From an uncultured Alphaproteobacteria bacterium (GTDB lineage: Bacteria; Pseudomonadota; Alphaproteobacteria; HIMB59; GCA-002718135), in contig CACKRO010000004.1 in assembly GCA_902602695.1 (NCBI GenBank), positions 1-64,000 of the forward strand: DNA of 64,000 nt, given 5' to 3'. Numbering within the stretch: the stretch's first letter is position 1; each line of letters starts with the position of its first letter. The notes below the pieces were generated by a model, which saw only the letters and a program-made list of their open reading frames with translations, searched no databases and was not told the origin of the DNA. Position numbers and translations under genes: made by a program. Shown here piece after piece: positions 1 through 15,463 of this stretch.

Positions 1-14
1 ATTAAATGGAGGAA

Positions 15-1343
15 ATGATGAATAAAATTTTAAATATTTTTTTAACTTTTATTCTTTCAGCTTTTTTCGCAACTTCAACATTTGCTGCCACTAAAGTAGT
101 TTGGTGGATGGAAAGTAGTGCAGATACTGACCCTACAGTTCAAGAAATGATGTGTGATGCTTTTAATGCTGAACAAGATGAAGTAGAATTAGAATGTGTA
201 TTCAAAGAAGACATTAATGATACTATCAGACCAGCACTTTTATCTGGAAGTGGACCGGACATGTTTGATACACCTGGTGCTTCTTACATAAAAATTTACC
301 AAGATGCAGGTCTTGTTAAATCTATGCAAGAGTATGCTGATCAATATGGTTGGCAAGATAAACTTCTAGGTTGGGCTTACAACTCAGGAGTCTTTGATGG
401 TGATTTATATTCAATTCCAAAAAACTATGAAACAATGATTTATTTTTATAATAAAACTTTGTTTGAAGAAAATGGATGGAGTACGCCAAATACTTTAGAA
501 GAAGTTGAATCTTTAGCTGCTAAAATCAAAGCTAAAGGAATGAATGTTTACGCGTATGGTTCTGCTGGATGGCAGCCAACTCACGAACATTTAGTAGGAA
601 ACTATTTCAACACTTATGCTGGACCAGATAATGTTTACAAAGCATTAATTGGTGAAAAAAAGTGGACAGATCCAGAGTTTGTAGAAGCAATTGAACTTTT
701 AAGAAAACACATGGTAGATGAAGGTTATTGGTCTGGGAATTTAGAGACATATTATTCTCTAGATTGGGATGATTTTAATAACGAGTTTGCTACCAGAGGT
801 TCTGCAATGCTCATGATTGGAACTTGGGGTTTCAATGTAACGGCAACGAATTTTGGAGAATCTTCTGATGATTGGGATTGGAATCCTTTACCAATTCTAA
901 ATTCACAGGCAGGAAGTGCTCCTAATTACCAACTTGCAACAGGTGGAACAATGTCCATCAATGCAGCATCTAAAAATGCAGATGGAGCTGCAAAAGTAAT
1001 TGATTGGATTCTTTCTGATAAAGCAAGAGCTCTTAAAGTTACTGGTAGCTTAGGTTATGGCGCTTGGTTGTTACCACTAAAATACACTGATGCTGACTTT
1101 GATCCTAATATTGATCCAAGACAAAAAAGATTCTTAACTGAATTCGCAGAAGCTTCTGATTCAGGAAATTATGGATATACAACATGGACATTCTATCCGA
1201 ATGACCCGGGTGTTCATATCTGGAAGGATATGGAAGTGGTTTGGGCTGGAGATATTACCCCACTTGAATTCATGGAAGAATCTCAAAGACTTTGGGACCA
1301 AGCTCGTGCAGACGATGCATTAGTTCCAGTTGGAAAAAGATAA
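15..1343 (+). CDS. Sugar ABC transporter extracellular solute-binding protein
   Basis: Signal peptide-like N-terminus (KILNIFLTFILSAFFATSTFA); family-1 SBP-like body (WWMESSADTDP..., GSGPDMFDTPG, GGTMSINAASKNADGAAKVIDWI). Track start at 6 overlaps a GGAGG; ATG at 15/18 is more likely. Confidence 0.9.
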   Translation: MMNKILNIFLTFILSAFFATSTFAATKVVWWMESSADTDPTVQEMMCDAFNAEQDEVELECVFKEDINDTIRPALLSGSGPDMFDTPGASYIKIYQDAGLVKSMQEYADQYGWQDKLLGWAYNSGVFDGDLYSIPKNYETMIYFYNKTLFEENGWSTPNTLEEVESLAAKIKAKGMNVYAYGSAGWQPTHEHLVGNYFNTYAGPDNVYKALIGEKKWTDPEFVEAIELLRKHMVDEGYWSGNLETYYSLDWDDFNNEFATRGSAMLMIGTWGFNVTATNFGESSDDWDWNPLPILNSQAGSAPNYQLATGGTMSINAASKNADGAAKVIDWILSDKARALKVTGSLGYGAWLLPLKYTDADFDPNIDPRQKRFLTEFAEASDSGNYGYTTWTFYPNDPGVHIWKDMEVVWAGDITPLEFMEESQRLWDQARADDALVPVGKR

Positions 1344-1397: not shown

Positions 1398-2276
1398 ATG
1401 CCAAAATTTTTAACAAGTATAAATGCAATTTCCTGGTACTTTTTATTTCCAGTTATATTCATTCATTTCTTTGTGGTAGCATTCCCGTCGATACTAAGTT
1501 TATTGTTATGTTTAACGGACTGGAATGGTTTTGGCAGAATAAACTATGTTGGATTAGAAAATTTTCAAGAATTATTTAGAGACCGTGTTTTCAAGAAAGC
1601 AGTTAAACACAACATAATTTGGACAGTAATGTTCTTAACAATACCAGTAATCGTAGCACTTACTATAGCATATCTTTTAACAGGAATAAAAAGAGGACAA
1701 CTTTTTTATAGGCTAGTTTATTTTTTTCCATACATTCTAGCTAGTATCGTTAATTGTTTGATTTGGAGATACATATTCCATCCAAGACATGGTTTAGGTG
1801 GTTGGTTTGAAAATCAAGGTATTGATTTTCTTGCTAAGTCACCATTTGCTATGAAGGAGACTGCCTTATACGCTGTTGCCTGGGTAGATATGTGGCATTT
1901 CTGGGGTTTCTTAGTTATTATCTATTTAACTGGAATGTATCAAGTTGATGACTCTCTCTATGAAGCAGCAGATATTGAAGGAGCAACAAAATTTCAAAAA
2001 TTTAGATACATTACTTTACCAATGATACGACCAATTTTTGTTTTATCTTTAATAATTATAATTATCTGGTCTGTCCCAACATTTGACTATGTATATATTT
2101 TAACAATGGGTGGGCCAGCATATAGTTCTGAAGTTGTAGCAAACCATTTATACTCGCAAGCCTTTCAACGAATGAATGTTGGTTACGCATCTACTATAGG
2201 TGTTATGATGTTCTTCTATGTTGGTATTATAGTAGGTTTCTTTGCAATTTTAAGGCGGATGGGTTGGGAGGTATAA
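1398..2276 (+). CDS. Sugar ABC transporter permease (MalF/UgpA-like)
   Basis: Multi-TM; EAA-type loop 'YEAADIEGATKFQKFRYITLPMIRPIF'. Confidence 0.9.
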   Translation: MPKFLTSINAISWYFLFPVIFIHFFVVAFPSILSLLLCLTDWNGFGRINYVGLENFQELFRDRVFKKAVKHNIIWTVMFLTIPVIVALTIAYLLTGIKRGQLFYRLVYFFPYILASIVNCLIWRYIFHPRHGLGGWFENQGIDFLAKSPFAMKETALYAVAWVDMWHFWGFLVIIYLTGMYQVDDSLYEAADIEGATKFQKFRYITLPMIRPIFVLSLIIIIIWSVPTFDYVYILTMGGPAYSSEVVANHLYSQAFQRMNVGYASTIGVMMFFYVGIIVGFFAILRRMGWEV

Positions 2277-2284
2277 AATTATAA

Positions 2285-3127
2285 ATGGCAACTGCAAGAT
2301 TTAGACAAAGATCGAGCTATATAAATCATGCCATTTTGATTTTTATGGCTTTAACAATAATTTTACCATTACTAGTTTTAGCTTTTAATTCTATAAAACC
2401 ATCTTCTGAATTTGGAGCAAATCCTTTAGGTTTTCCAAATGAAATAAGATTAATGAATTATTATGATGCGTGGGTGAATGGAAATTATACTCAAATATTT
2501 ACAAATTCACTCACCTTAGTTATTGGAACTTTAATATTGAATTTGACTGTTTCGGGTCTAGCTGCTTTCAGTTTGGCAGTTTTAAACCCAAAAGGAATTC
2601 AAACAATTGTTGTTGGTTTATATCTTTTAGTTGGAATTAGTATTCCTGCACAATTATTTATTTTACCATTATTTTTAATGTGGAAAACCTTATACCTCCT
2701 AGACACAAGGATTGGTTTAATTATAATTTATAGCGCTTTAAATGCTCCATTCGCAACTTTTTTAATTCGATCATACATGTTGCAACTACCGACAGAACTT
2801 TTTGAAGCCGCTAAGCTAGATGGAGCATCCGTAATGCAATTGTTTACAAGGGTTGCTCTACCTCTTTCTTGGCCAGTTTTTTTAACAACTGCTCTTATTG
2901 TATCATTAACAGTTTGGAATGAGTTTTTATTTGCTATTACTTTTATTATTACTGATGAATACAAACCCATTTCCTCAATTTTATTTACATTTCAAAGTAG
3001 ATTTGCAAATGATTATGGATTGGTAAGCGCAGCTTCCATTTTAATGGCTGCACCAATTGCTATTTTATTTATGTTTTTTCAAAGACGTTTCATTGCTGGT
3101 TTAACCAGTGGAGCAACAAAAGGTTAG
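2285..3127 (+). CDS. Sugar ABC transporter permease (MalG/UgpE-like)
   Basis: Multi-TM; EAA loop 'FEAAKLDGASVMQLFTRVALPLSWPVF'. Confidence 0.9.
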   Translation: MATARFRQRSSYINHAILIFMALTIILPLLVLAFNSIKPSSEFGANPLGFPNEIRLMNYYDAWVNGNYTQIFTNSLTLVIGTLILNLTVSGLAAFSLAVLNPKGIQTIVVGLYLLVGISIPAQLFILPLFLMWKTLYLLDTRIGLIIIYSALNAPFATFLIRSYMLQLPTELFEAAKLDGASVMQLFTRVALPLSWPVFLTTALIVSLTVWNEFLFAITFIITDEYKPISSILFTFQSRFANDYGLVSAASILMAAPIAILFMFFQRRFIAGLTSGATKG

Positions 3128-3142
3128 TTCAATGGGAGGAAG

Positions 3143-5308
3143 ATGGAACTTAATAAAGAATATCAGGAGAAAGTCTATTCAGGAGTTTTAGGTAAAATTA
3201 TAGGTGTCTATCTTGGCAGACCTTTTGAGGGTTGGTGGTATGATAGAATTATAAAGGAATTAGGGCCAATTAATTATTATGTAAATGATAAGTTAAATAT
3301 GCCTATTCAAATCACAGATGATGACTTAACTGGAACATTTAGATTTATAAACGCCTTAAAAGATTTTAAATATGATAAAAATATTTCTTCCAAGCAAATC
3401 GGTCAAACATGGTTAAATTATTGTTTAGAAAACCAGGCTGTTTTATGGTGGGGTGGTAAAGGTACATCATCAGAAGATACTGCTTATCAAAATTTAAAAC
3501 AGGGTATTGATGCTCCTGATAGTGGATCTATTAAAACAAATGGTAAAATTGTTGCTGAACAAATAGGTGCTCAGATCTTTATTGATGGTTGGGGATTAGT
3601 TTCACCAGGTGATCCAGATCAAGCAGCTGATTTTGCAAAAAAAGCAGGTAGTGTTAGTCACGATGGTGAGTCAGTATACGCAGCTCAAGTTGTTGCTGCA
3701 ATGGAGGCCATGGCTTTTATAGAAAAGGACACAAAAAAAATTATTGAGCATTGCAAAAAATATATTCCAAAAGATTCAACAATTTTTAAACTTATATCTG
3801 ACATTCAAGACTGGAGCTCAGGTAATTTAGATTGGGAGCAAGCAAGAGAAAAAATAGATAATTTTTATGGATATGAAAAATTCATAGGCGGTGTTCACAT
3901 TGTCCCAAATCATGCATTAATTATTTTAGCATTATTATTTGGCGATGATAATTTTCAAAAATCCTTAATGATTGTTAATACTTCAGGATGGGATACAGAT
4001 TGTAATTCTGGAAATGTAGGATGTTTTCTTGGAATTAAAAATGGACTTGAAAGTATAAAAGATGGTCCTGATTATATTACTCCTGTTAATGATACTATTT
4101 ATCTTCCAACTAGTAATGGAGCTGAAACAATGACTGATGCTCTTAGAGAAAGTCAAAATATTGTAAATATTACAAGACGGATTAACGGTTTGGAAAATAA
4201 TTTAATAAAAGATAATGCAAGATACAATTTTGAAATGCCTGACTCAACTCAGGCTTGGAAGGTTAATAAGTTAAATGATAATAATCTTAATACTAGAATT
4301 GCAAATGTTGCTTATGAATCAAATATTGGTCAAAGAGCTCTAGAAATTGACTTTTCTAATTTATCAATTGGTCATTCAAGTGTTGTGTATGTAGATACTT
4401 TTTTCCCAGATTGGTTTACTGAATTAAAAGGCGTTCAAAGGCAGAAATTTTTTCATTATGATTTTGTTGGATGTCCAATAGTTTATACTGGTCAAAAAAT
4501 TAAAACTGAAATAATTTCTAAAAGTAAAAATAATATTAAAGTTACTTTATTTATAAAATATTGGGGAGAAGAAGATAAACTAAAACAAATAGATGCAGAG
4601 CAATATGAACTTTTAAATAATGAAGTAAAATCTATTGAGTGGACTGTTCCAGACACATTTTCTAATCCAATTGGACAAATTGGATTTGTTATTTCTTCAG
4701 ATACAAATACTTCAGGTAAACTGTTAATTAATTATCTTGATATTGAAGGAACACCAAAAACAACTTTTAAAAGACCTGAACATATAGAAAATGCTGCAAA
4801 AAATGGATATTTTTTCAATCAAGAATTTTATGGTCAATTATGGAAAAGAGCATGGGTTAACGATATTGATAAGTGGCAATATAGATGGATGGAGTCTTTT
4901 AAAATAATTAACGGTGTGGGAAGAGGGCATATTTTACAGGGTTCATCTTCTTGGAAGGATTATTCTGTTTCTTCTAAAGTTAATTTTCCTTTAGCATCAG
5001 CTGGAGGATTAATTATAAGATCTCAAGGTGTAAAAAGGTATTATTCTTTAGAATTAACGTCAAAAAATAAATTACAGATAAATAAAATGTTCTATGAACT
5101 TGAAACGTTAAAAGAAGTAGATTTCAATTTTGAATTTTATAAAGATTATGAATTACGATTTGTAGTTAAAGGAAATAAATTATCTGGTTATGTAGATGGG
5201 AATCTTTTAATTGAGACACAAGATAAAGATAACTCATTTGAATCTGGGATGATTGGTTTTATTGCTCAAGATGGAACATTATCATCAAACGCAATTAGCA
5301 TAGAATAA
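3143..5308 (+). CDS. ADP-ribosylglycohydrolase-family protein with C-terminal beta/LamG-like regions (paralog 1)
   Basis: DraG-type motifs 'TDDDLTGTF', 'SVSHDGESVYAAQ', 'GWDTDCNSGNVGC'; C-terminus 'GGLIIRSQGVKRYYSLELTSKNKLQINKM' resembles ConA/LamG-like domains. SD ggagg upstream. Confidence 0.85.
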   Translation: MELNKEYQEKVYSGVLGKIIGVYLGRPFEGWWYDRIIKELGPINYYVNDKLNMPIQITDDDLTGTFRFINALKDFKYDKNISSKQIGQTWLNYCLENQAVLWWGGKGTSSEDTAYQNLKQGIDAPDSGSIKTNGKIVAEQIGAQIFIDGWGLVSPGDPDQAADFAKKAGSVSHDGESVYAAQVVAAMEAMAFIEKDTKKIIEHCKKYIPKDSTIFKLISDIQDWSSGNLDWEQAREKIDNFYGYEKFIGGVHIVPNHALIILALLFGDDNFQKSLMIVNTSGWDTDCNSGNVGCFLGIKNGLESIKDGPDYITPVNDTIYLPTSNGAETMTDALRESQNIVNITRRINGLENNLIKDNARYNFEMPDSTQAWKVNKLNDNNLNTRIANVAYESNIGQRALEIDFSNLSIGHSSVVYVDTFFPDWFTELKGVQRQKFFHYDFVGCPIVYTGQKIKTEIISKSKNNIKVTLFIKYWGEEDKLKQIDAEQYELLNNEVKSIEWTVPDTFSNPIGQIGFVISSDTNTSGKLLINYLDIEGTPKTTFKRPEHIENAAKNGYFFNQEFYGQLWKRAWVNDIDKWQYRWMESFKIINGVGRGHILQGSSSWKDYSVSSKVNFPLASAGGLIIRSQGVKRYYSLELTSKNKLQINKMFYELETLKEVDFNFEFYKDYELRFVVKGNKLSGYVDGNLLIETQDKDNSFESGMIGFIAQDGTLSSNAISIE

Positions 5309-5320
5309 AATTTATTGGTT

Positions 5321-7525
5321 ATGAAATTAGATAATATCTTTGAAAATAAAGTTTATGCTGGAGTTTTAGGAAAGATTATTGGAGTCTACTTAGGAAGACC
5401 TTTTGAAGGTTGGCCGTATGATAAAATAATCAAAGAACTTGGACCTATTTATTATTATGTAAATGATAAATTAAATGTACCTATGCATGTAACTGATGAC
5501 GATCTTAATGGTACGTTTGCATTTATCAAAGCTTTTGAAGATTTTAATTTTGATAAAAATATTACTTCTGAACAAATCGGTCAAACATGGTTAAATTATT
5601 GTTTAGAAAATCAAGCTGTATTGGCATGGGCAGGAAAGGGACTACTAACTGAAGAAAGTGCATATTTAAATTTAAAGCAAGGTATTACAGCTCCTGATAG
5701 TGGATCTATAAAAATAAATGGAAAAATTATAGCTGAACAAATTGGTGCTCAAATTTTTATTGATGGTTGGGGTATGATTGCCGGAGGTGATCCTGATTTT
5801 GCATCTGATTTAGCTAAAAAAGCAGGAAGTGTTAGTCATGATGGAGAATCTGTCTATGGTGCTCAAGTTGTTGCATCAATGGAAGCAATGGCATTTATTG
5901 AAAATGATACAAGGAAAATAATTGAGCATTGTAAAAAATATATTCCTAATGATTCTATTATTTATAAATTAATATCAGATATCCAGGATTGGAGTTCTGG
6001 TAATTTAGATTGGGAACAAGCAAGATCTAAAATAGAAGAAAATTATGGATATGATAAGTACCAAGGTTTTTGCCATATTGTTCCAAATCATGCTTTGATA
6101 ATTTTAGCTCTTTTGTTTGGAGATGATGATTTTCAAAAAACATTAATGATTGTTAATACTGCTGGCTGGGATACTGATTGCAACTCAGGCAATGTAGGTT
6201 GTTTTATGGGTATTAAAAATGGCATAGAAGGAATCCAGAAGGGTCCAGACTTTATTTCACCAGTAAATGACACATTATATATAACATCAGCTCGTGGCTC
6301 AGAAACAATGACTGATGCTCTTAGAGAAAGTCAAAATATAATTAACATTAGAAGAAAGTTAGATGGTCTTGAAAGTAAGGTTATAAAAAATAATGCTAGA
6401 TATAATTTTGAAATGGAAACATCCACACAAGGATGGATGGTTGATAAATCAAATGATAATAATCAGAATACTCTCTTAAAAAATATCGAATATAAATCTA
6501 ATATTGGAAATAGAGCACTTGAGATAAATTTTAATAATCTAACAAAAGGTATTAATAGCGAGTTACATGTAAATACTTTTTTTCCAGAAGAGTTTACAAC
6601 CTTAAATGAGCAACAAGAAATGATGCTCATGGTGTACAGTTTTGTTGGGTGTCCTATAATTTATTCTGGTCAAAATATTATAACTGAAATAATTTCAAAA
6701 ACAAAAAAAGATATAAAAGTTAAATTGTTTATTAAATATTATGGTGAAGGTGATAAATTAAGTAAAATAAATTCAGCTGAATATATCCTATCAGAGCATC
6801 AGACAGAAACATTAGAATGGAATGTTCCTGATACATTTTCAAACCCTATTGCGCAGATTGGAATTTCTATTTCTTCTGATGAGCAAGTATCAGGTAAAGC
6901 CTTGATGAATTATCTTCATATTTCTGGAATACCTCAAATGACATTTAGAAGACCAGATCATATTAAGGATAATCACGCTAATACCAAAAGTCACAATATT
7001 AAATCTTTAACAAATGGGATTTATATTCCCGAAGAAGATAAATATTATGGGCAATTATGGAGATTAGCTTGGGTAAATGATGTAGACAAATGGTACAGTG
7101 TAGGAAAAAATTCTTTTGGATTAATAAAAAATAATTCAAGAGGACATATTTTTACTGGCTCATCTGAATTGAAAGATTATTCTGTATCTTCAAAAATTCT
7201 GTTTCGTTTGGCATCTTCTGGAGGAGTAATTATTAGATCTCAAGGACTTCAAAGATATTACTCCTTAGAAATAACATCTACAAACAAATTACAAATTAAT
7301 AAAATGGAATATGGTCTAAAAAATTTGAAAGAAGTAGATTTTAAGTTTGAGCAATTCAAAGTATACGAAGTACGTTTTGAGGCTTATGGCAAAATTTTAA
7401 AAGGTTTTATTAACAATCAATTGTTAATTGAAGTTGAGGATAAGACAAATCAGTTTGATAAAGGAATGATAGGTTATATTGTTGAAAATGGAACTATTAT
7501 TAGTGAAGATATTTCTATAAATTGA
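5321..7525 (+). CDS. ADP-ribosylglycohydrolase-family protein with C-terminal beta/LamG-like regions (paralog 2)
   Basis: 'TDDDLNGTF', 'SVSHDGESVYGAQ', 'GWDTDCNSGNVGC'. Track start 5315 is TTG; ATG at 5321 preferred. Confidence 0.85.
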   Translation: MKLDNIFENKVYAGVLGKIIGVYLGRPFEGWPYDKIIKELGPIYYYVNDKLNVPMHVTDDDLNGTFAFIKAFEDFNFDKNITSEQIGQTWLNYCLENQAVLAWAGKGLLTEESAYLNLKQGITAPDSGSIKINGKIIAEQIGAQIFIDGWGMIAGGDPDFASDLAKKAGSVSHDGESVYGAQVVASMEAMAFIENDTRKIIEHCKKYIPNDSIIYKLISDIQDWSSGNLDWEQARSKIEENYGYDKYQGFCHIVPNHALIILALLFGDDDFQKTLMIVNTAGWDTDCNSGNVGCFMGIKNGIEGIQKGPDFISPVNDTLYITSARGSETMTDALRESQNIINIRRKLDGLESKVIKNNARYNFEMETSTQGWMVDKSNDNNQNTLLKNIEYKSNIGNRALEINFNNLTKGINSELHVNTFFPEEFTTLNEQQEMMLMVYSFVGCPIIYSGQNIITEIISKTKKDIKVKLFIKYYGEGDKLSKINSAEYILSEHQTETLEWNVPDTFSNPIAQIGISISSDEQVSGKALMNYLHISGIPQMTFRRPDHIKDNHANTKSHNIKSLTNGIYIPEEDKYYGQLWRLAWVNDVDKWYSVGKNSFGLIKNNSRGHIFTGSSELKDYSVSSKILFRLASSGGVIIRSQGLQRYYSLEITSTNKLQINKMEYGLKNLKEVDFKFEQFKVYEVRFEAYGKILKGFINNQLLIEVEDKTNQFDKGMIGYIVENGTIISEDISIN

Positions 7526-7550
7526 TAAGTTGATCATTTGGGAGAAAAAT

Positions 7551-9713
7551 ATGAATTTAGATAAAGTATTTGAAAATAAAGTTTATGCTGGTGTCCTAGG
7601 CAAGATCATTGGTGTCTATCTTGGTAGGCCTTTTGAGGGCTGGTCTTACGATCGCATAATGGAAGAACTAGGTCCAATTAATTATTACGTAAATGATAAA
7701 CTTGATTTTCCTATACATGTTACAGATGATGATCTTTCTGGTACTTTTAGGTTCATTAATGCTCTGAAACATTTTAACTATGATAAAAAAATATCTGCAA
7801 AACAAATTGGTCAAACATGGCTTAACTATTGTTTAGAAAATCAAACTATTTTAGCTTGGGCTGGCAAAGGTATTTTAACTGAAGAAAGTGCATACATGAA
7901 TTTAAAACAAGGAATTCATGCACCTGAAAGTGGCTCAATTGAAAGAAACGGTAAAGTGATAGCTGAACAAATTGGCGCCCAAATTTTTATTGATGGTTGG
8001 GGAATGGTTTCTCCTGGAGATCCAGAACAAGCTGTTGATTTAGCTAAAAGAGCAGGCAGTGTAAGTCATGATGGGGAATCTGTTTACGGTGCTCAAGTCG
8101 TTGCTGCAATGGAGTCTATGGCATTTATCGAAAATGATATTAAAAAAATTATTGAAGAAAGTAAAAAATTTGTACCAACTGACTCAACAATTTACAAACT
8201 CATATCAGATATCCAGGATTGGAGTTCTGGTAATTTAGATTGGGAACAAGCAAGATCTAAAATTGAAGATAAATATGGATACAGTAAATTTCCAGGAAAT
8301 TGTCACATTGTACCTAATCATGCACTCATTATATTAGCATTACTATTTGGAGATGATGATTTTCAAAAATCATTAATGATAGTTAATACTGCAGGTTGGG
8401 ATACAGATTGTAATTCTGGAAATGTTGGCTGTATTTTAGGAATAAAAAATGGATTAGAAGGTATCCAGAAGGGCCCAGATTATATTACCCCAGTTAATGA
8501 TATAATTTATTTACCATCTGCATATGGTTCTGAAACTATGACTGATGCCTTATTGGAAAGTCAAAATATTATTAATATAACAAGAAAAATGAATGGGCTT
8601 GAAGGCAAGGTTATAAAAAATAATGCTAGATATAATTTTGAAATGGAAACATCCACTCAAGGATGGATGGTTGATAAAGCAAACGATAATAATCTAAATA
8701 CTAATTTATCAAATGTAGAATACAAATCTAATAATGGTACTAGAGCACTACAAGTTAGTTTTACAGATTTGTCTTTTGGTCTTTCTAGTGAAATTTTTGT
8801 AGATAGTTTTTTCCCCGAATGGTTTACAAAATTAGAAGGTTATCAGGTACAAAGATATTTTCATTATGATTATGTTGCTTGCCCCCTTGTTTATACAGGT
8901 CAAAATATAAAAACTGAGATTGTTTCAAAATCTGAAAAAGATTTAAGAATTAATTTGTTCATAAAATATTGGGGCGAGGGTGATAAATTAATTAAAATCT
9001 CTTCTGAGGATCATACTATCAAAGCTAATGAAAATAATGTTATAGAGTGGAATGTTCCTGACACATTCTCTAATCCAATTGGTCAAATGGGAATAAGTAT
9101 AAATTCTGATGATAATGTTACAGGTAAATTATTAATTAATTATTTAAATATTTCTGGTTCTCCTAAAATGACATTCAGAAGACCAGATCATATAGATGAA
9201 TTTAAAAGAGGTATTTTTTATAAAGAAGAAGTTTACGGTCAATTATGGAAAAGAGCTTGGGTAAATGATGTAGATAAATGGCAATACCGTCATAACGAGT
9301 CGTTTAAAGTTGTTAGAGGTATCGGCCGTGGTCATATAATGACTGGAAGTGAAACATGGAAAGATTATTCAATTTCAGCAAAAATTTCTATTCCTCTTGC
9401 ATCTGCTGGAGGTTTGATACTTAGATCACAAGGACTTAAAAGGTATTATTCTCTTGAGCTTACAAAAGAAAATAAACTTAAAATTAATAAAATGGAGTAC
9501 GACCTGAAAACTCTTAAAGAAATTGATTTTGATCTCGAATTCTTTAAAGACTATGAATTGAAATTTAAGGTTGATGGTAATAAATTACAAGGTTTTGTTG
9601 ATAATAAACTATTAATTGAAGTTGAAGATAAATCGAACCCATATGAAGAGGGAATGATTGGTTTTTTAACTGAAAATGGTGCCATTCAGAGTGATTCAAT
9701 ATCAATTGAGTAA
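7551..9713 (+). CDS. ADP-ribosylglycohydrolase-family protein with C-terminal beta/LamG-like regions (paralog 3)
   Basis: 'TDDDLSGTF', 'SVSHDGESVYGAQ', 'GWDTDCNSGNVGC'. Track start 7530 is TTG; ATG 7551 with SD GGGAG preferred. Confidence 0.85.
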   Translation: MNLDKVFENKVYAGVLGKIIGVYLGRPFEGWSYDRIMEELGPINYYVNDKLDFPIHVTDDDLSGTFRFINALKHFNYDKKISAKQIGQTWLNYCLENQTILAWAGKGILTEESAYMNLKQGIHAPESGSIERNGKVIAEQIGAQIFIDGWGMVSPGDPEQAVDLAKRAGSVSHDGESVYGAQVVAAMESMAFIENDIKKIIEESKKFVPTDSTIYKLISDIQDWSSGNLDWEQARSKIEDKYGYSKFPGNCHIVPNHALIILALLFGDDDFQKSLMIVNTAGWDTDCNSGNVGCILGIKNGLEGIQKGPDYITPVNDIIYLPSAYGSETMTDALLESQNIINITRKMNGLEGKVIKNNARYNFEMETSTQGWMVDKANDNNLNTNLSNVEYKSNNGTRALQVSFTDLSFGLSSEIFVDSFFPEWFTKLEGYQVQRYFHYDYVACPLVYTGQNIKTEIVSKSEKDLRINLFIKYWGEGDKLIKISSEDHTIKANENNVIEWNVPDTFSNPIGQMGISINSDDNVTGKLLINYLNISGSPKMTFRRPDHIDEFKRGIFYKEEVYGQLWKRAWVNDVDKWQYRHNESFKVVRGIGRGHIMTGSETWKDYSISAKISIPLASAGGLILRSQGLKRYYSLELTKENKLKINKMEYDLKTLKEIDFDLEFFKDYELKFKVDGNKLQGFVDNKLLIEVEDKSNPYEEGMIGFLTENGAIQSDSISIE

Positions 9714-9733
9714 AAAGACAAAGAGGAGGAATG

Positions 9734-11893
9734 ATGAAACTAGATAAAGTTTATGAGGAAAAAGTATATGCAGGTGTGCTTGGTAAATTAATAGGTGTTT
9801 ATCTAGGACGTCCTTTTGAGCAATGGACTCACGAAAGAATAATAGAAGAGCTAGGTCAGATTAATTATTATGTAAATGAAAAATTAAATGTCCCTTTGGT
9901 TGTAACTGATGACGATATAACTGGCACCTTTACTTTTTTAAGAGCTTTAAGAGAAAATAATTTTGATCCTAATATAACTGCAAAACAAATAGGTCAAAGT
10001 TGGTTAAACAATCTCATAGAAAATAAAACTGTTTTGTGGTGGGGAGGTAGAGGTCACTCAGCTGAAGATACAGCATTTCAAAATCTTAAAGATGGTATTC
10101 ATGCACCAATGAGTGGATCTATTGAAACAAATGGTGAAGTTATTGCACAACAAATAGGCGCTCAAATATTTATTGATGGTTGGGCTTTAGTAGCTCCGGG
10201 TGATCCAGAAAAAGCAGTTGAACTAGCAAAAAAAGCAGCAAGTGTAAGTCATGATGGAGAAGCAATTTATGGAGCGCAAATGGTTGCCGCTATGGAGTCA
10301 TTAGCTTTTATCGAAAAAGATATTAATAAAATAATTAATGAAAGTAAAAAATATATTCCCAATACATCTGAGATTTATAAAGTAATTGGAGAACTTCAAA
10401 ATATACGATCTGGAAATAGCGATTGGATGCAAGCTCGACAATTCTTAGCAGAAAACTATGATTATGATAAATATTTAGGTGAGTGTCATATGATACCTAA
10501 TCATGCTATAATTATCCTTTCTTTGTTGTTTGGTGATGACGATCTTCAAAAGACATTAATGATTGTTAACACTGCAGGTCGTGACACAGATTGTAATTCT
10601 GGGAATGTAGGTTGCTTAATGGGTATTAAAAATGGATTGGAGGGTTTAAATAAAGGACCTGACTATCTATCCCCAATCCAAGATAGAATGTATTGCCCAA
10701 CTGCCAATGGTGGTGAGACTCAAACAGATGCTTTAACCGAAGCTTATAAAGTTATTAATACTGCTAAAAGAATGAATAATGAAAATATTATTCAGCCTAA
10801 AAATGGATCAAGATTTCACTTTGAGATGCCTGGCTCAGTTCAAGGTTGGAGAGCTAATTATAAAGAAAATAAAAATATCTCTACTCATGTTCAGAACATA
10901 AAATTTGATAGTAAAATAGGTAACAGAGGACTTGAAATTAAATTTGATCGAGTTGCTCCTGGTGTTATCTCTGAGGCATTAGTTGATATTTTTTTTCCTC
11001 AAGAATTACATGAATTAACAGGGCGTGCTAGAGAAAGATTTTTTCAAAGTTATAATTTTATTTCATGTCCATTATTATATTCTGGTCAAACAATTGAATC
11101 GGAAATAAGCTTTATTTCTAACTCAGATAAACCAATCAATGTGAAATGTTTTATAAATATTTTTGGAAAAGATGATGAATATGAAAGAATGAATTCAGAG
11201 GAAATCATCATTTATCCTGGTAAATCACATAACTTAAAATGGAAAATTCCATCAACAGAAGGTAATCCTATAACTCAAGTAGGCTTTTCTATTGAATCAG
11301 AAGAAACAAATTCAGGAAGTTTGATAATAAACCATTTAGATTTTACTGGAGAGCCAAATTGTTCATTTTATAAGCCCAAGCATATTGGAGATCATAAAAG
11401 AGGTGTCGTTAAATCAAAAGCAATAATGTGGAAATCTAGCTGGGTAAATGCAGTAGATAAGTGGGAAGTTGGTGCTCGAACTTTTAGAATCACAAAAGAT
11501 AGTGGTAGAGGTATCATTATTACCGGTAATGAAGCATGGAAAAATTATACTGTTAGTGCTGAGATAGCAGTTCAAAGATTAACTACAGGTGGTCTTGCTG
11601 TAAGAGTTCAGGGATTGAATAGATATTATGGATTAGTAATTAATTCATCAAATAAACTTCAATTAATAAAAGTAATAAATGATGTTGAGATTTTAAAAGA
11701 AATGGATTTTAATTTAGAGTATTTTAAAAACTATAATCTGTCTCTTAAAATATTAAATAATAATTTATCAGCATATTTAGAAAACGAATTAGTTTTGGAA
11801 TATGAAGACAAAAAAAATGTACTTGAGTCAGGAGCTATAGGATTAGTTATTGAAGATGGAACATTAGTTACTGATGAAATAATTGTAAAATAA
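9734..11893 (+). CDS. ADP-ribosylglycohydrolase-family protein with C-terminal beta/LamG-like regions (paralog 4, divergent)
   Basis: 'TDDDITGTF', 'SVSHDGEAIYGAQ', 'GRDTDCNSGNVGC'; SD GAGGAGG just upstream. Confidence 0.85.
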   Translation: MKLDKVYEEKVYAGVLGKLIGVYLGRPFEQWTHERIIEELGQINYYVNEKLNVPLVVTDDDITGTFTFLRALRENNFDPNITAKQIGQSWLNNLIENKTVLWWGGRGHSAEDTAFQNLKDGIHAPMSGSIETNGEVIAQQIGAQIFIDGWALVAPGDPEKAVELAKKAASVSHDGEAIYGAQMVAAMESLAFIEKDINKIINESKKYIPNTSEIYKVIGELQNIRSGNSDWMQARQFLAENYDYDKYLGECHMIPNHAIIILSLLFGDDDLQKTLMIVNTAGRDTDCNSGNVGCLMGIKNGLEGLNKGPDYLSPIQDRMYCPTANGGETQTDALTEAYKVINTAKRMNNENIIQPKNGSRFHFEMPGSVQGWRANYKENKNISTHVQNIKFDSKIGNRGLEIKFDRVAPGVISEALVDIFFPQELHELTGRARERFFQSYNFISCPLLYSGQTIESEISFISNSDKPINVKCFINIFGKDDEYERMNSEEIIIYPGKSHNLKWKIPSTEGNPITQVGFSIESEETNSGSLIINHLDFTGEPNCSFYKPKHIGDHKRGVVKSKAIMWKSSWVNAVDKWEVGARTFRITKDSGRGIIITGNEAWKNYTVSAEIAVQRLTTGGLAVRVQGLNRYYGLVINSSNKLQLIKVINDVEILKEMDFNLEYFKNYNLSLKILNNNLSAYLENELVLEYEDKKNVLESGAIGLVIEDGTLVTDEIIVK

Positions 11894-11895
11894 AA

Positions 11896-12879
11896 ATGAA
11901 ATATAGAAAATTTGGATTATTAGATTGGAATGTATCCGAAATCGGATTAGGTTGCTGGCAAATAGGAGCTGACTGGGGAGAGGTTAGTGAAGATAAAGCT
12001 AAAGAAGTATTAAAATCATCTTTTGAAAATGGTGTTAATTTTTTTGATACTGCTGATGTCTATGGCATGGGTAGAAGTGAAAAATTTGTGGGTGAATTCA
12101 TTAAATCAGTATCTGAAAGAATTTATGTGGCAACAAAAGCTGGAAGACAAATCAATCCTCATGTTGCCGAGGGATACTATGATAAAACTTTAATGGAGTC
12201 TTATGTGGATCAATCTTTATCAAATCTTAATGTTGAAACAATTGATCTATTACAAATGCACTGTCCACCTACTGAAGTTTATTCATCTGGAAATACATTT
12301 GAAATGCTAGATTATTTAGTAAGTAAAGGAAAAATACAAAACTATGGTTTTAGTGTTCAGACTGTAGATGAAGCTTTAGAATGTATAAAATTTCCCAATA
12401 CAAAATCTATTCAAGTTATTTTTAATATGTTTAGGCAAAAACCTGCTGAAAAATTATTTCAAATTGCAAAAGAAAAAAATATTGCCATAATTGTACGAGT
12501 TCCACTTGCGAGCGGATTGTTGACAGGTAAGTTTACTAAAGAATCTTCATTTGCACCGGATGATCATCGTAATTACAATATCAATGGAGATGCTTTTGAT
12601 GTTGGTGAAACCTTCTCAGGTGTTAATTATAACAAAGCTTTAGAAGCTGTAGATGATTTGAAAAAGATTATACCACCAGGAATAACTTTATCTCAATTAT
12701 CACTTAGATGGATTTTAATGCATGATGCTGTCAGTGTAGTAATTCCAGGCGCAAAAAATAAAGATCATGTAAATTTAAATACCTCTTCTTCAGATGCCAA
12801 TGAAATTTCATCTTTAATGAGTGAAATTCAAAATATTTATACAAAATATTTTTTTGATGATGTTCATCACCGTTGGTAA
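11896..12879 (+). CDS. Aldo/keto reductase
   Basis: AKR signatures 'LGCWQIG', 'NFFDTADVYGMGRSEKFVGEFI', 'VVIPGAKNKDHVNLN'. Confidence 0.9.
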   Translation: MKYRKFGLLDWNVSEIGLGCWQIGADWGEVSEDKAKEVLKSSFENGVNFFDTADVYGMGRSEKFVGEFIKSVSERIYVATKAGRQINPHVAEGYYDKTLMESYVDQSLSNLNVETIDLLQMHCPPTEVYSSGNTFEMLDYLVSKGKIQNYGFSVQTVDEALECIKFPNTKSIQVIFNMFRQKPAEKLFQIAKEKNIAIIVRVPLASGLLTGKFTKESSFAPDDHRNYNINGDAFDVGETFSGVNYNKALEAVDDLKKIIPPGITLSQLSLRWILMHDAVSVVIPGAKNKDHVNLNTSSSDANEISSLMSEIQNIYTKYFFDDVHHRW

Positions 12880-14036
12880 AGTACCTTGTGTTAGAAGAAG
12901 ATAAAATAATATTTAAAAGAGCTACTTTTGCATCGGTAATAACATCTGCTTATCCCATGATAGTTGTGGGTTGTTATTTTGGAATAACCCCATGGAATAT
13001 GAATAGGCTTTCAATTGATGAAACCGATTTAAGTTATGCTATTTTACTTTTTGGAATATTTTTTATTATTTCTAATCAAATAGCTGGAAGAATATTAGTT
13101 CCAAAATTTGGGACAAAGTTAGTTATGAGTTTAGCTTTTCCTATTGTTGCTTTTTCTACTTTTTTATCAATTATTTCTCCAACATATTTCTATTTCTTAT
13201 TATCTGCTATTCCAACAGGAATTGGATGGGGTGCATCAGGGCCAATAGGGGGTATACATTCACAATTAATTGAACAAAGATTCAAAAAAATTATTACTCC
13301 TTATTACGCAATGGGTTTTAGCTTAGGTATTCTTATAGGTGGAGGATTAGCAGGTTTAATAATGAAAAATGAATATGAGCCATATATTTCTTTTATTTTT
13401 TTAGCTTTCTTTTCCATATTAGCATCATTTACCGTATATTATTTGGGCTTACCAAGAAATATGGACTTTAAAGGTGAGGCTGAAAAATTCAAAATACCTG
13501 AAGGTAATATTCTTTTATTTGGGCTGCTTTTATTTTTTGTCTTTGGCTCAGGCGGTATAATAATGGATTGGTCAACATTATGGTTGAACAAAGACTTGGG
13601 CGCACCATTACATTTAGCAAGTACAGGATTGATATTTTTGAGTATTGGATCAATTTTTGCTAATTTACTTTCCAATACCTTAATAGATATTTTTACTGAA
13701 AAGGTTGTTGGTTGTTATTTTATTATGATTGGCGCTATAATTATGTTTATAGTTTTACTTACCAATAATTTTTACATTATTTTAGTAATGTTTGGTATTT
13801 ATGGTTTTTCTTCAGCAAATTTTGTACCAATAATCATTAGGCAAGCAGTTAAACAATCCAATGAAAGTATACCGATGACTGTAACAAATCTTATTACTAT
13901 TGGATTATCTTCTACAATGATAATGCCCGCAGGAATTGGTTTTATAGCAGAAACATTTTCACTTACACTAAATATGTATTTATTATCTTTTATAGTATTT
14001 ACTTGTGGGGTAATTTTTTTATTTAAATATAAATAA
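12873..14036 (+). CDS. MFS transporter
   Basis: About 12 hydrophobic segments; 'GIGWGASGPIGGIHSQLIEQRF' MFS-like. Start is TTG at 12873 or GTG near 12888; overlaps the AKR end. Confidence 0.8.
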   Translation: MVKYLVLEEDKIIFKRATFASVITSAYPMIVVGCYFGITPWNMNRLSIDETDLSYAILLFGIFFIISNQIAGRILVPKFGTKLVMSLAFPIVAFSTFLSIISPTYFYFLLSAIPTGIGWGASGPIGGIHSQLIEQRFKKIITPYYAMGFSLGILIGGGLAGLIMKNEYEPYISFIFLAFFSILASFTVYYLGLPRNMDFKGEAEKFKIPEGNILLFGLLLFFVFGSGGIIMDWSTLWLNKDLGAPLHLASTGLIFLSIGSIFANLLSNTLIDIFTEKVVGCYFIMIGAIIMFIVLLTNNFYIILVMFGIYGFSSANFVPIIIRQAVKQSNESIPMTVTNLITIGLSSTMIMPAGIGFIAETFSLTLNMYLLSFIVFTCGVIFLFKYK

Positions 14037-14040
14037 ATTA

Positions 14041-14847
14041 ATGAATAATTTAAAAATTTCTCAAGTTCAATTTACTGCAAGTCAAATACCTAATTTGAAT
14101 TCTAAATTTCTAGAGAAATATTTTAATAAAGCATTAAAATCTAAACCTCATTTAATTTGCACACCAGAATGTTCAAACATCATTACCAATGATAAAAATT
14201 ATTTAAAACAAAATGCACCATATCAAAATACATGCCCAGTTTTAAAAATGGCTAAAAACTTTGCAAAGAAAAATAAGGTTAATATAAATCTTGGATCTTT
14301 GCTTTTAAAAGTAAAAAATCAATCTAAACTAGTCAATAGATCTTTTTTTATTGATGATCATGGAATAATCAAAAAAATATATGATAAAATTCATATGTTT
14401 GATGCTCAAATTAATAACAAAGAAACACATCAAGAGTCATCTTTGTTTCAAGCTGGTAATAAAATAACATATACAAAAATTAATAATATTAAATTAGGAA
14501 TGACAATTTGTTATGATTTACGATTTCCTTCTTTGTACAGGAAACTTGCTAAAAAAGATTGTTCAATTGTTTTAGTTCCAGCTGCCTTTACTAGACCTAC
14601 GGGAAAAGACCACTGGGAAATTTTGAATCGGTCAAGAGCAATAGAAAATAATGTATTTATTGTTGCAACAGGTATGTGTGGAAATCATCATATGCAAAGA
14701 AAAACTTATGGATATTCTCTTTTAGTTGATCCATGGGGGAAGATCGTAAATAGTACTAAAGATAAACCTTCAATTCTTAACTCAACTATAAAAATTATGG
14801 AGGTAAAAAAAATTAGAAAAAAAATTCCTTCACTTCAATATGAATAA
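14041..14847 (+). CDS. Carbon-nitrogen hydrolase (nitrilase superfamily, Nit/omega-amidase-like)
   Basis: Glu/Lys/Cys triad context 'ICTPECSN', 'YDKIHMFD', 'GMTICYDLRFPSLYR'. Confidence 0.88.
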   Translation: MNNLKISQVQFTASQIPNLNSKFLEKYFNKALKSKPHLICTPECSNIITNDKNYLKQNAPYQNTCPVLKMAKNFAKKNKVNINLGSLLLKVKNQSKLVNRSFFIDDHGIIKKIYDKIHMFDAQINNKETHQESSLFQAGNKITYTKINNIKLGMTICYDLRFPSLYRKLAKKDCSIVLVPAAFTRPTGKDHWEILNRSRAIENNVFIVATGMCGNHHMQRKTYGYSLLVDPWGKIVNSTKDKPSILNSTIKIMEVKKIRKKIPSLQYE

Positions 14848-15463
14848 TTTTAAATTTCTAGTTTCAGGTGTTGGAAATATAAATAAAACAAGAAAATACT
14901 ATGACGATTGGTCAGAAAATTATGATGCAACACTTAAGTTATGGAATTATCAAGCTCCTAAAAAAAGTATAAAATTTCTAAAAGAAACAATTAATATTAA
15001 TCCACAAAAAATCTTAGATTTAGCATGTGGTACCGGTTTATTTGGTACTGAGTTAAAAAAAATTTATCCAAAAAGCCAAATCTATGGCTCTGATATTTCC
15101 AACAAAAGTTTAAAAATTACATCAGGCAAAAAAATTTATAAAAAATTACAAATAAAAAACTTTGAACAATTACATCATTATAAATTAAAATTTGATCTTA
15201 TTTCTCTGATTGGTTCTATGACTTATTGTAAAAACTTTGACAAACTTTTTGCTAATATTAATAAAAATATTAAAGAAAAAGGTTTTGTAATATTTTCACA
15301 TAGAACTGATTTATGGAAACAACAGGATTTTTTAAGAATTTTGAAAAAACATCAAAAAACATTGAAAATTATTAAAATTTCTAGACCTTTAAATTATTTA
15401 CCTTTGAATAATGATTTTAAAAACAAAATAAAAATCAAAATTGTTTTGTTACAAAAATATTAA
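14840..15463 (+). CDS. Class I SAM-dependent methyltransferase
   Basis: 'YDDWSENYDATLKLWNY', 'ILDLACGTGLFGTEL' motif I; 8-nt overlap with upstream CDS. Confidence 0.85.
   Translation: MNNFKFLVSGVGNINKTRKYYDDWSENYDATLKLWNYQAPKKSIKFLKETININPQKILDLACGTGLFGTELKKIYPKSQIYGSDISNKSLKITSGKKIYKKLQIKNFEQLHHYKLKFDLISLIGSMTYCKNFDKLFANINKNIKEKGFVIFSHRTDLWKQQDFLRILKKHQKTLKIIKISRPLNYLPLNNDFKNKIKIKIVLLQKY

Follow-up and report, generated by a model that had tools for sequence, protein, structure and literature searches.

An importer-linked array of four DraG-family proteins in an uncultured HIMB59 alphaproteobacterium is a candidate cassette for riboside catabolism

Introduction

Proteins of the DraG/ARH family (PF03747), such as R. 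rubrum DraG, human ARH3 and MJ1187, perform chemistry at the C1 of ribose, and in the ARH enzymes a GNG(G/A)AMR loop binds the diphosphate of ADP. Here, we analyzed a 64,000-nucleotide stretch, referred to as the window, from an uncultured alphaproteobacterium of the HIMB59 lineage (GenBank assembly GCA_902602695.1, contig CACKRO010000004.1, positions 1 to 64,000), in which four consecutive genes (D1 to D4) for enlarged members of this family, designated DraG-720, follow the genes of a sugar ABC importer. In their catalytic fold and in the metal motifs TDD and DTD, DraG-720 proteins agree with the family; they differ from it in an invariant cysteine in place of the final Thr/Ser, in the loss of the ADP-diphosphate loop, in two added β-domains and in their co-inheritance with an importer.

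The closest analogue is the E. coli yegTUV-yegW locus, which comprises a transporter, a DraG-family protein, a PfkB kinase and a regulator, and for which the functions of yegTUV are stated as unknown (PMC10819704). Its DraG protein, however, is single-domain and canonical (TDDT...DTDT) without a CBM66-like part, and its transporter is of the MFS rather than the ABC importer type. The yegTUV-like pairing of DraG with a ribokinase-family kinase occurs with DraG-720 homologues at loci L092, L096, L107, L159, L166 and L168, whereas the operon in the window has an aldo/keto reductase (AKR) instead. CUT1-type sugar ABC importers, e.g. for xylo- or chitin-oligosaccharides, resemble the present operon in combining an SBP_bac_1 solute-binding protein (SBP) with two BPD_transp_1 permeases (P1 and P2); the operon differs from them in having neither a dedicated ATPase nor a CAZy-type hydrolase, its hydrolases being of the DraG type. 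Lastly, DraG-720 homologues lie within sets of nucleoside or ribose salvage genes (rbsK, deoC, rih, udp) in L157, L159, L166 and L168, although they fall outside the nucleoside hydrolase and phosphorylase families.

In PMC papers (subscription journals being outside this coverage), we found no account of the cassette, nor of a sugar-related or catabolic activity for a DraG enzyme, and papers on AEGEAN-169/HIMB59 describe sugar importers without mentioning ribosyl-type hydrolases. Thus, while all protein families involved are known, the catabolic system itself is apparently undescribed, as a previous sequence-only reading of this DNA had proposed. We consider an importer-plus-hydrolase catabolic cassette for ribosides the best overall explanation of the locus and give it somewhat better than an even chance.

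Results

A search of 60 relatives for PF03747, with 20 regions examined, returned matches in 22 genomes including that of the window, all within its genus, and in none of 24 order-mates. The order SBP-P1-P2-DraG was present in every locus of the genus that extends far enough, i.e. the array is linked to the importer in relatives as well, and a longer order, in which one, two or four DraG genes are followed by AKR, an MFS transporter, a nitrilase-type CN_hydrolase (NIT) and a methyltransferase (MT), recurs at one chromosomal place. Between four-copy and single-copy genome types, the cassette alleles of SBP, P1, P2 and DraG are 54, 70, 65 and 57% identical, respectively, as compared to 89% for the aldolase upstream and 85, 81, 83 and 86% for AKR, MFS, NIT and MT downstream; an ABC-F gene is 97% identical between two-copy and single-copy types. 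This pattern of a low-identity cassette within high-identity flanks indicates that importer and hydrolase were replaced together as one unit, which is strong evidence for a shared function. At each of the two genomic locations occupied in the group, the hydrolase gene is followed by that of AKR, including in L024, L034 and L057. In L024, and probably in L034 with its short contig context, cassette and AKR occupy a different genomic context, suggesting that AKR travels with the cassette and that MFS may not. The MFS transporter, absent beside AKR in L024, is probably accessory, and NIT and MT are conserved neighbours that probably lie outside the pathway. In one genome of the genus that lacks the array (G011), a DraG-family gene of the classical, single-domain type occurs in another context (L035:410-1318, + strand).

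In a genome scan, full-length homologues turned up at 74 loci, which belong to Alphaproteobacteria (among them Rhodobacteraceae and SAR116-labelled records), Chloroflexota, Abditibacteriota, Bacillota and Poribacteria. Their frequency was 31/400 in the phylum of a Chloroflexota genome (G062), 7/399 in that of a Bacillota-labelled genome (G066) and 2/385 in the window's own class, both in the same genus; this patchy spread suggests horizontal transfer. Other marine Alphaproteobacteria show the order LacI-SBP-P1-P2-DraG, and across 62 distant loci the directon containing DraG-720 also includes permease genes (24 loci), SBP (20), LacI (12) or PfkB (9). At five loci, a single-domain DraG gene stands beside importer and DraG-720 (L085:8783-9928, L100:6365-7522, L109:8765-9892, L158:2507-3508 and L159:2340-3335), and the two DraG types may act in one operon there. 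Two further records call for care: an alphaproteobacterial-type cassette contig (72% identity) filed under the label Euryarchaeota archaeon MAG (L051) is a probable binning error, and a Bacillota-group homologue whose reading frame is split by an in-frame TAG (L164:6940-9099, - strand) is a possible pseudogene or sequencing error.

Structure prediction was carried out for D4 as the one representative of the four paralogues (AF2, 34 sequences in the alignment) and gave a model with pLDDT 91.5 and pTM 0.93, helical to about residue 350 and followed by two β-domains: a DraG domain (~1-350), a β-sandwich (~360-550) and a CBM66-like domain (~570-720). The N-terminal part is predicted to adopt the all-helical DraG fold, with MJ1187 (TMt 0.77), DraG (0.73) and ARH3 (0.69) as its top Foldseek matches among solved structures. 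The last ~150 residues matched the CBM66 fold (TMt 0.82-0.84, rmsd 1.6-1.8), and the middle domain gave weaker matches to tandem β-sandwich proteins, e.g. CBM22 pairs and galactocerebrosidase. The sequence-only reading had described a β-rich tail with a LamG/ConA-like end; the tail is indeed β-rich, but the LamG/ConA label gives way to a CBM66-like fold, which is preceded by a separate β-sandwich. Compared with the CBM66 of B. subtilis levanase, the likeness is at the level of the fold (~18% identity), and DraG-720 differs in having no signal peptide. This absence, noted before, agrees with the model, where the DraG domain starts with its first helix at the very N-terminus and leaves no space for a cleaved signal peptide. 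We therefore take the enzymes to be cytoplasmic and soluble.

D1 to D4 score 155-175 bits against PF03747 (cut-off 26.2) and are its sole matches in the assembly; each carries all three DraG motifs that had been pointed out. In the binuclear site of the family (T-D-D...D-x-D-T/S), T59, D60, D61, D285 and D287 are present (D4 numbering), and the final T/S is C288 in 76 of 76 homologues. Residues E30, D60-D62, H174, G176, E177, N257, H258, D285, T286, D287, C288 and N289 are likewise invariant in these 76 sequences from several phyla, and the first metal-site threonine (T59) is the one metal-site position that varies (T/S/P). The prediction of a DraG fold, like that of an intact metal site, carries high confidence, but the final ligand position is a cysteine. 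The motifs read TDDD and DTDC, versus TDDT/S and D-x-D-T/S in yegU, MJ1187 and ARH3, and the GNG(G/A)AMR loop of YegU, MJ1187 and ARH3 is QIGAQIF in all DraG-720 copies. Judged from these residues, DraG-720 likely retains the chemistry of the family and likely does not retain the recognition of ADP-ribose. With the final Thr ligand replaced by Cys and the ADP-diphosphate loop lost, ADP-ribose, representing a type of compound suggested previously, is disfavoured as a substrate.

In one locus (L098), a gene adjoining SBP-P1-P2-DraG-720 (2853-4460, - strand) encodes a protein that joins a LacI-type DNA-binding domain (PF00356) to a DraG domain (PF03747, 164 bits), the latter with the motifs DDD and DTDCN, possibly a transcription factor with the DraG domain as its sensor. 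A further DraG-family protein of this locus (4679-6409, - strand) has a signal-peptide-like N-terminus, an extra C-terminal region and a DSDCN motif, and suggests that some DraG enzymes may be secreted and work extracellularly. The DTDC/DSDC motifs of these LacI-fused and secreted proteins indicate that the cysteine marks a broader branch rather than this array alone.

Evidence on the released sugar comes from other phyla, with the kinase genes near the hydrolase as its most informative part. Ribokinase genes above the curated TIGR02152 cut-off (299.65) are found in or adjoining the hydrolase operon in L092 (373), L096 (338), L107 (347), L159 (315), L166 (340) and L168 (306), in the last case a few genes away in the same run; in L166, DeoC also exceeds its cut-off. 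In L157, an importer and two tandem DraG-720 genes (6974-11187, - strand), a second and independent tandem pair in a distant genome, are part of a nucleoside-type operon with a PfkB kinase, a uridine-phosphorylase family protein, an IU nucleoside hydrolase and a nucleoside deoxyribosyltransferase. The LacI regulators of four kinase- or nucleoside-type loci match RbsR at or near the top, below cut-off. The window's own genome has a ribokinase over cut-off, which shares its run with DeoC-like and mutarotase-like genes. Together, these neighbours make ribose the most likely sugar to be released. Among solved folds, the nearest to the SBP model (AF2, pLDDT 88.5) are those of binders of chitin- and xylo-oligosaccharides, of lacto-N-biose and of galactose (AcbH); the cell may therefore import a glycoside that contains ribose and not simply a nucleoside.

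The four copies form separate clades (D1, D2, D3 and D4), each common to several genomes, within a tree that keeps all copies of the group together. Copy number in the genus is 1, 2 or 4, and the same four-copy array in four other genomes (L016-L019) shows that it is not an assembly artefact. Relative to D1, protein identity is 67% for D2, 71% for D3 and 51% for D4, with an overall range of 51-71%. Each paralogue departs from conserved positions in its own way: D1 has intact metal-site residues, keeps W102 and W283 and has valine for the conserved cysteine (V251), D2 has W to A104 and G to A106, D3 has W to A109 and G to A111, and D4 has W to I225 and W to R284. In D4 numbering, W103A and G105A are confined to the D2/D3 lineages (W103A in 14 of 76 sequences), W225I/M and W284R/H to the D4 lineages (9/76) and C252V to D1 (6/76); the positions are near-invariant elsewhere and the changes fixed per orthologue group. 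W284 immediately precedes the DTD metal motif, and the other lost tryptophans may line the substrate pocket. Paralogue-specific loss of near-invariant residues with retention of the metal site favours substrate specialisation over dosage. Of the two explanations offered earlier, substrate breadth or dosage, this supports the former, and paralogues tuned to different substrates are the best reading.

Features of the locus are compiled in Table 1. The four DraG-720 genes, which lie 4-17 bp apart, proved intact and correctly placed by the sequence-only reading, as were the importer genes before and the AKR and MFS genes behind them. With spacers of -8 to +17 bp from P1 through MT and a 54-bp gap between SBP and P1, a single directon that extends through NIT and MT is likely, in line with the one transcription unit claimed. 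A scan for promoters gave results at chance level. The strong hairpin in the SBP-P1 gap has a predicted folding energy of -16.3 kcal/mol (z -3.9), and its core occurs once in the window versus 0 expected. P1 and P2 have GlcT/UgpA and GlcU/UgpE, respectively, as top NCBIfam matches, both below cut-off, and the nearest solved structures to AKR are IolS and GSP69. D3 has a plausible alternative start at an internal ATG (7551). Only 5 nt separate the SBP gene from the contig edge, where the window begins; the cassette contains no ATPase gene, and relatives show none upstream either, only a divergent aldolase. Elsewhere in the genome, two UgpC-class ATPases (of the UgpC/MalK class) exceed the cut-off. 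The assembly measures 1.28 Mb at ~74% completeness, making a streamlined genome plausible. On another contig (C22) of this genome, a large gene, GH127-type hydrolase-like by inspection (L128:2125-4071, - strand), is flanked by genes of a sugar ABC importer, three of them for MalG-type permeases and one for a UgpC-class ATPase. Histidine-biosynthesis-like genes (hisD, hisC, hisB and hisN-like by inspection) follow the cassette in six Chloroflexota loci (L094, L095, L097, L099, L100 and L105), and hisG and hisD lie ~7 kb downstream in the window too; this proximity may be coincidence.

Table 1 Features of the importer-DraG-720 locus in the window
Feature	Position	Strand	Basis or remark
SBP (SBP_bac_1), periplasmic, solute-binding	6..1343	+	Pfam 91 bits; N-terminal signal peptide by inspection
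Hairpin, GGGGAAATATTTCCCC core, between SBP and P1	1355..1384	+	Possible differential-expression stem-loop
P1, sugar ABC permease 1	1398..2276	+	PF00528 (BPD_transp_1) over cut-off
P2, sugar ABC permease 2	2285..3127	+	PF00528 (BPD_transp_1)
D1, DraG-720 paralogue, 721 aa	3143..5308	+	PF03747 156 bits
D2, DraG-720 paralogue, 736 aa from TTG	5315..7525	+	PF03747 155 bits
D3, DraG-720 paralogue, 727 aa from TTG	7530..9713	+	PF03747 173 bits
D4, DraG-720 paralogue, 720 aa	9731..11893	+	PF03747 175 bits
AKR, aldo/keto reductase	11896..12879	+	PF00248 210 bits
MFS transporter	12873..14036	+	PF07690 73 bits; synteny
NIT (CN_hydrolase, nitrilase-type) and MT (methyltransferase)	14041..15463	+	PF00795 for the first; synteny, 82-91% identity

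Discussion

Taken together, our analysis makes it highly probable that DraG-720 proteins are intracellular glycosidases of whatever the linked importer brings in, a role that is well supported by genomic context. In the pathway we propose, a small glycoside would be captured by the SBP in the periplasm and brought in by the two permeases with a UgpC/MalK-type ATPase encoded elsewhere and presumably shared. In the cytoplasm, DraG-720 would split the glycosidic bond by means of a DraG/ARH-type two-metal site; the sugar set free, most likely D-ribose, would then be phosphorylated by the cell's own ribokinase. AKR would probably handle the sugar or the aglycone, and the four copies would share their chemistry while differing in their substrate pockets. 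Cytoplasmic hydrolysis of imported glycosides, as put forward before, thus remains the best reading, and the ribokinase, DeoC and nucleoside-gene neighbours narrow the substrate down towards ribosides, a step that is moderately supported; whether the substrate is specifically a riboside we regard as an even call.

Several observations weigh against ribosides or against the importer link. The importer is missing from the directon in 38 of the 62 distant loci, the SBP resembles oligosaccharide binders, and the operon of the window's lineage has AKR and no kinase. The enrichment of PfkB genes close to DraG-720, in itself a point in favour of ribosides (12 of the 236 genes at a distance of at most two, versus 2 of 491 further off; Fisher p 5e-5), has an optimistic p-value and a somewhat biased count, as the PfkB profile was built from these neighbourhoods and the loci are related. 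PfkB genes of L094-type loci fall under every curated cut-off, and in L106 the partners of DraG-720 are a GH4 glycosidase and a PfkB that is not a ribokinase. Ribokinase is general within the order, including order-mates without the hydrolase, so that its co-occurrence with the cassette gave no signal. The same architecture might serve an ordinary oligosaccharide or a glycoside of another sugar, for instance of algal or cyanobacterial origin, with the ribokinase neighbours limited to certain lineages. That all fold and sequence relatives of the SBP bind saccharides, that the C-terminus is CBM66-like and AKR IolS-like, and that a GH4 gene adjoins one homologue fit this alternative; it is nevertheless the less probable one, given that six distant loci have a curated ribokinase, one has DeoC and another a set of nucleoside genes, and that the established chemistry of the family is at ribose C1.

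Other explanations fare worse. True ADP-ribose hydrolases, acting on imported ADP-ribose or NAD fragments or on ADP-ribosylated proteins and only incidentally linked to a transporter, would account for the PF03747 match and the similarity to ARH3 and DraG, but are unlikely in view of the altered diphosphate loop, the Cys ligand in 76/76 sequences, the two extra β-domains, the four copies with diverged pockets and the joint swapping of cassette and importer. More improbable still is that DraG-720 proteins are non-catalytic, i.e. sugar-binding or regulatory components of the importer: although the LacI-DraG fusion beside one homologue illustrates that a DraG domain can be put to use as a sensor, and the C-terminus is of a carbohydrate-binding type, metal-site residues invariant in 76 sequences save the first Thr (T/S/P) would be unexpected for a role in binding alone. 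As to copy number, tandem same-strand genes of 51-71% identity, present in 1, 2 or 4 copies across the genus, might be functionally equivalent and serve dosage only; the loss of W103/G105 equivalents in D2/D3, of W225/W284 in D4 and of C252 in D1, together with separate clades across genomes, makes this unlikely.

A broader reading, to which we give a little less than an even chance, takes in the DTDC-type, CBM66-tailed DraG branch as a whole: its members would be widespread metal-dependent intracellular hydrolases feeding imported ribosides into ribose metabolism, expanded in some open-ocean bacteria to a specialised four-enzyme array that is swapped between strains along with its importer. 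The system thereby suggests a function, open to testing, for a large branch that is still uncharacterised within a family whose members are assumed to act on ADP-ribosylated proteins; E. coli yegTUV is the nearest laboratory analogue. The joint replacement of importer and hydrolase gives clear access to the question of how strains differ in their niches, and the cassette points towards a carbon source of oligotrophic marine bacteria that has gone unrecognised.

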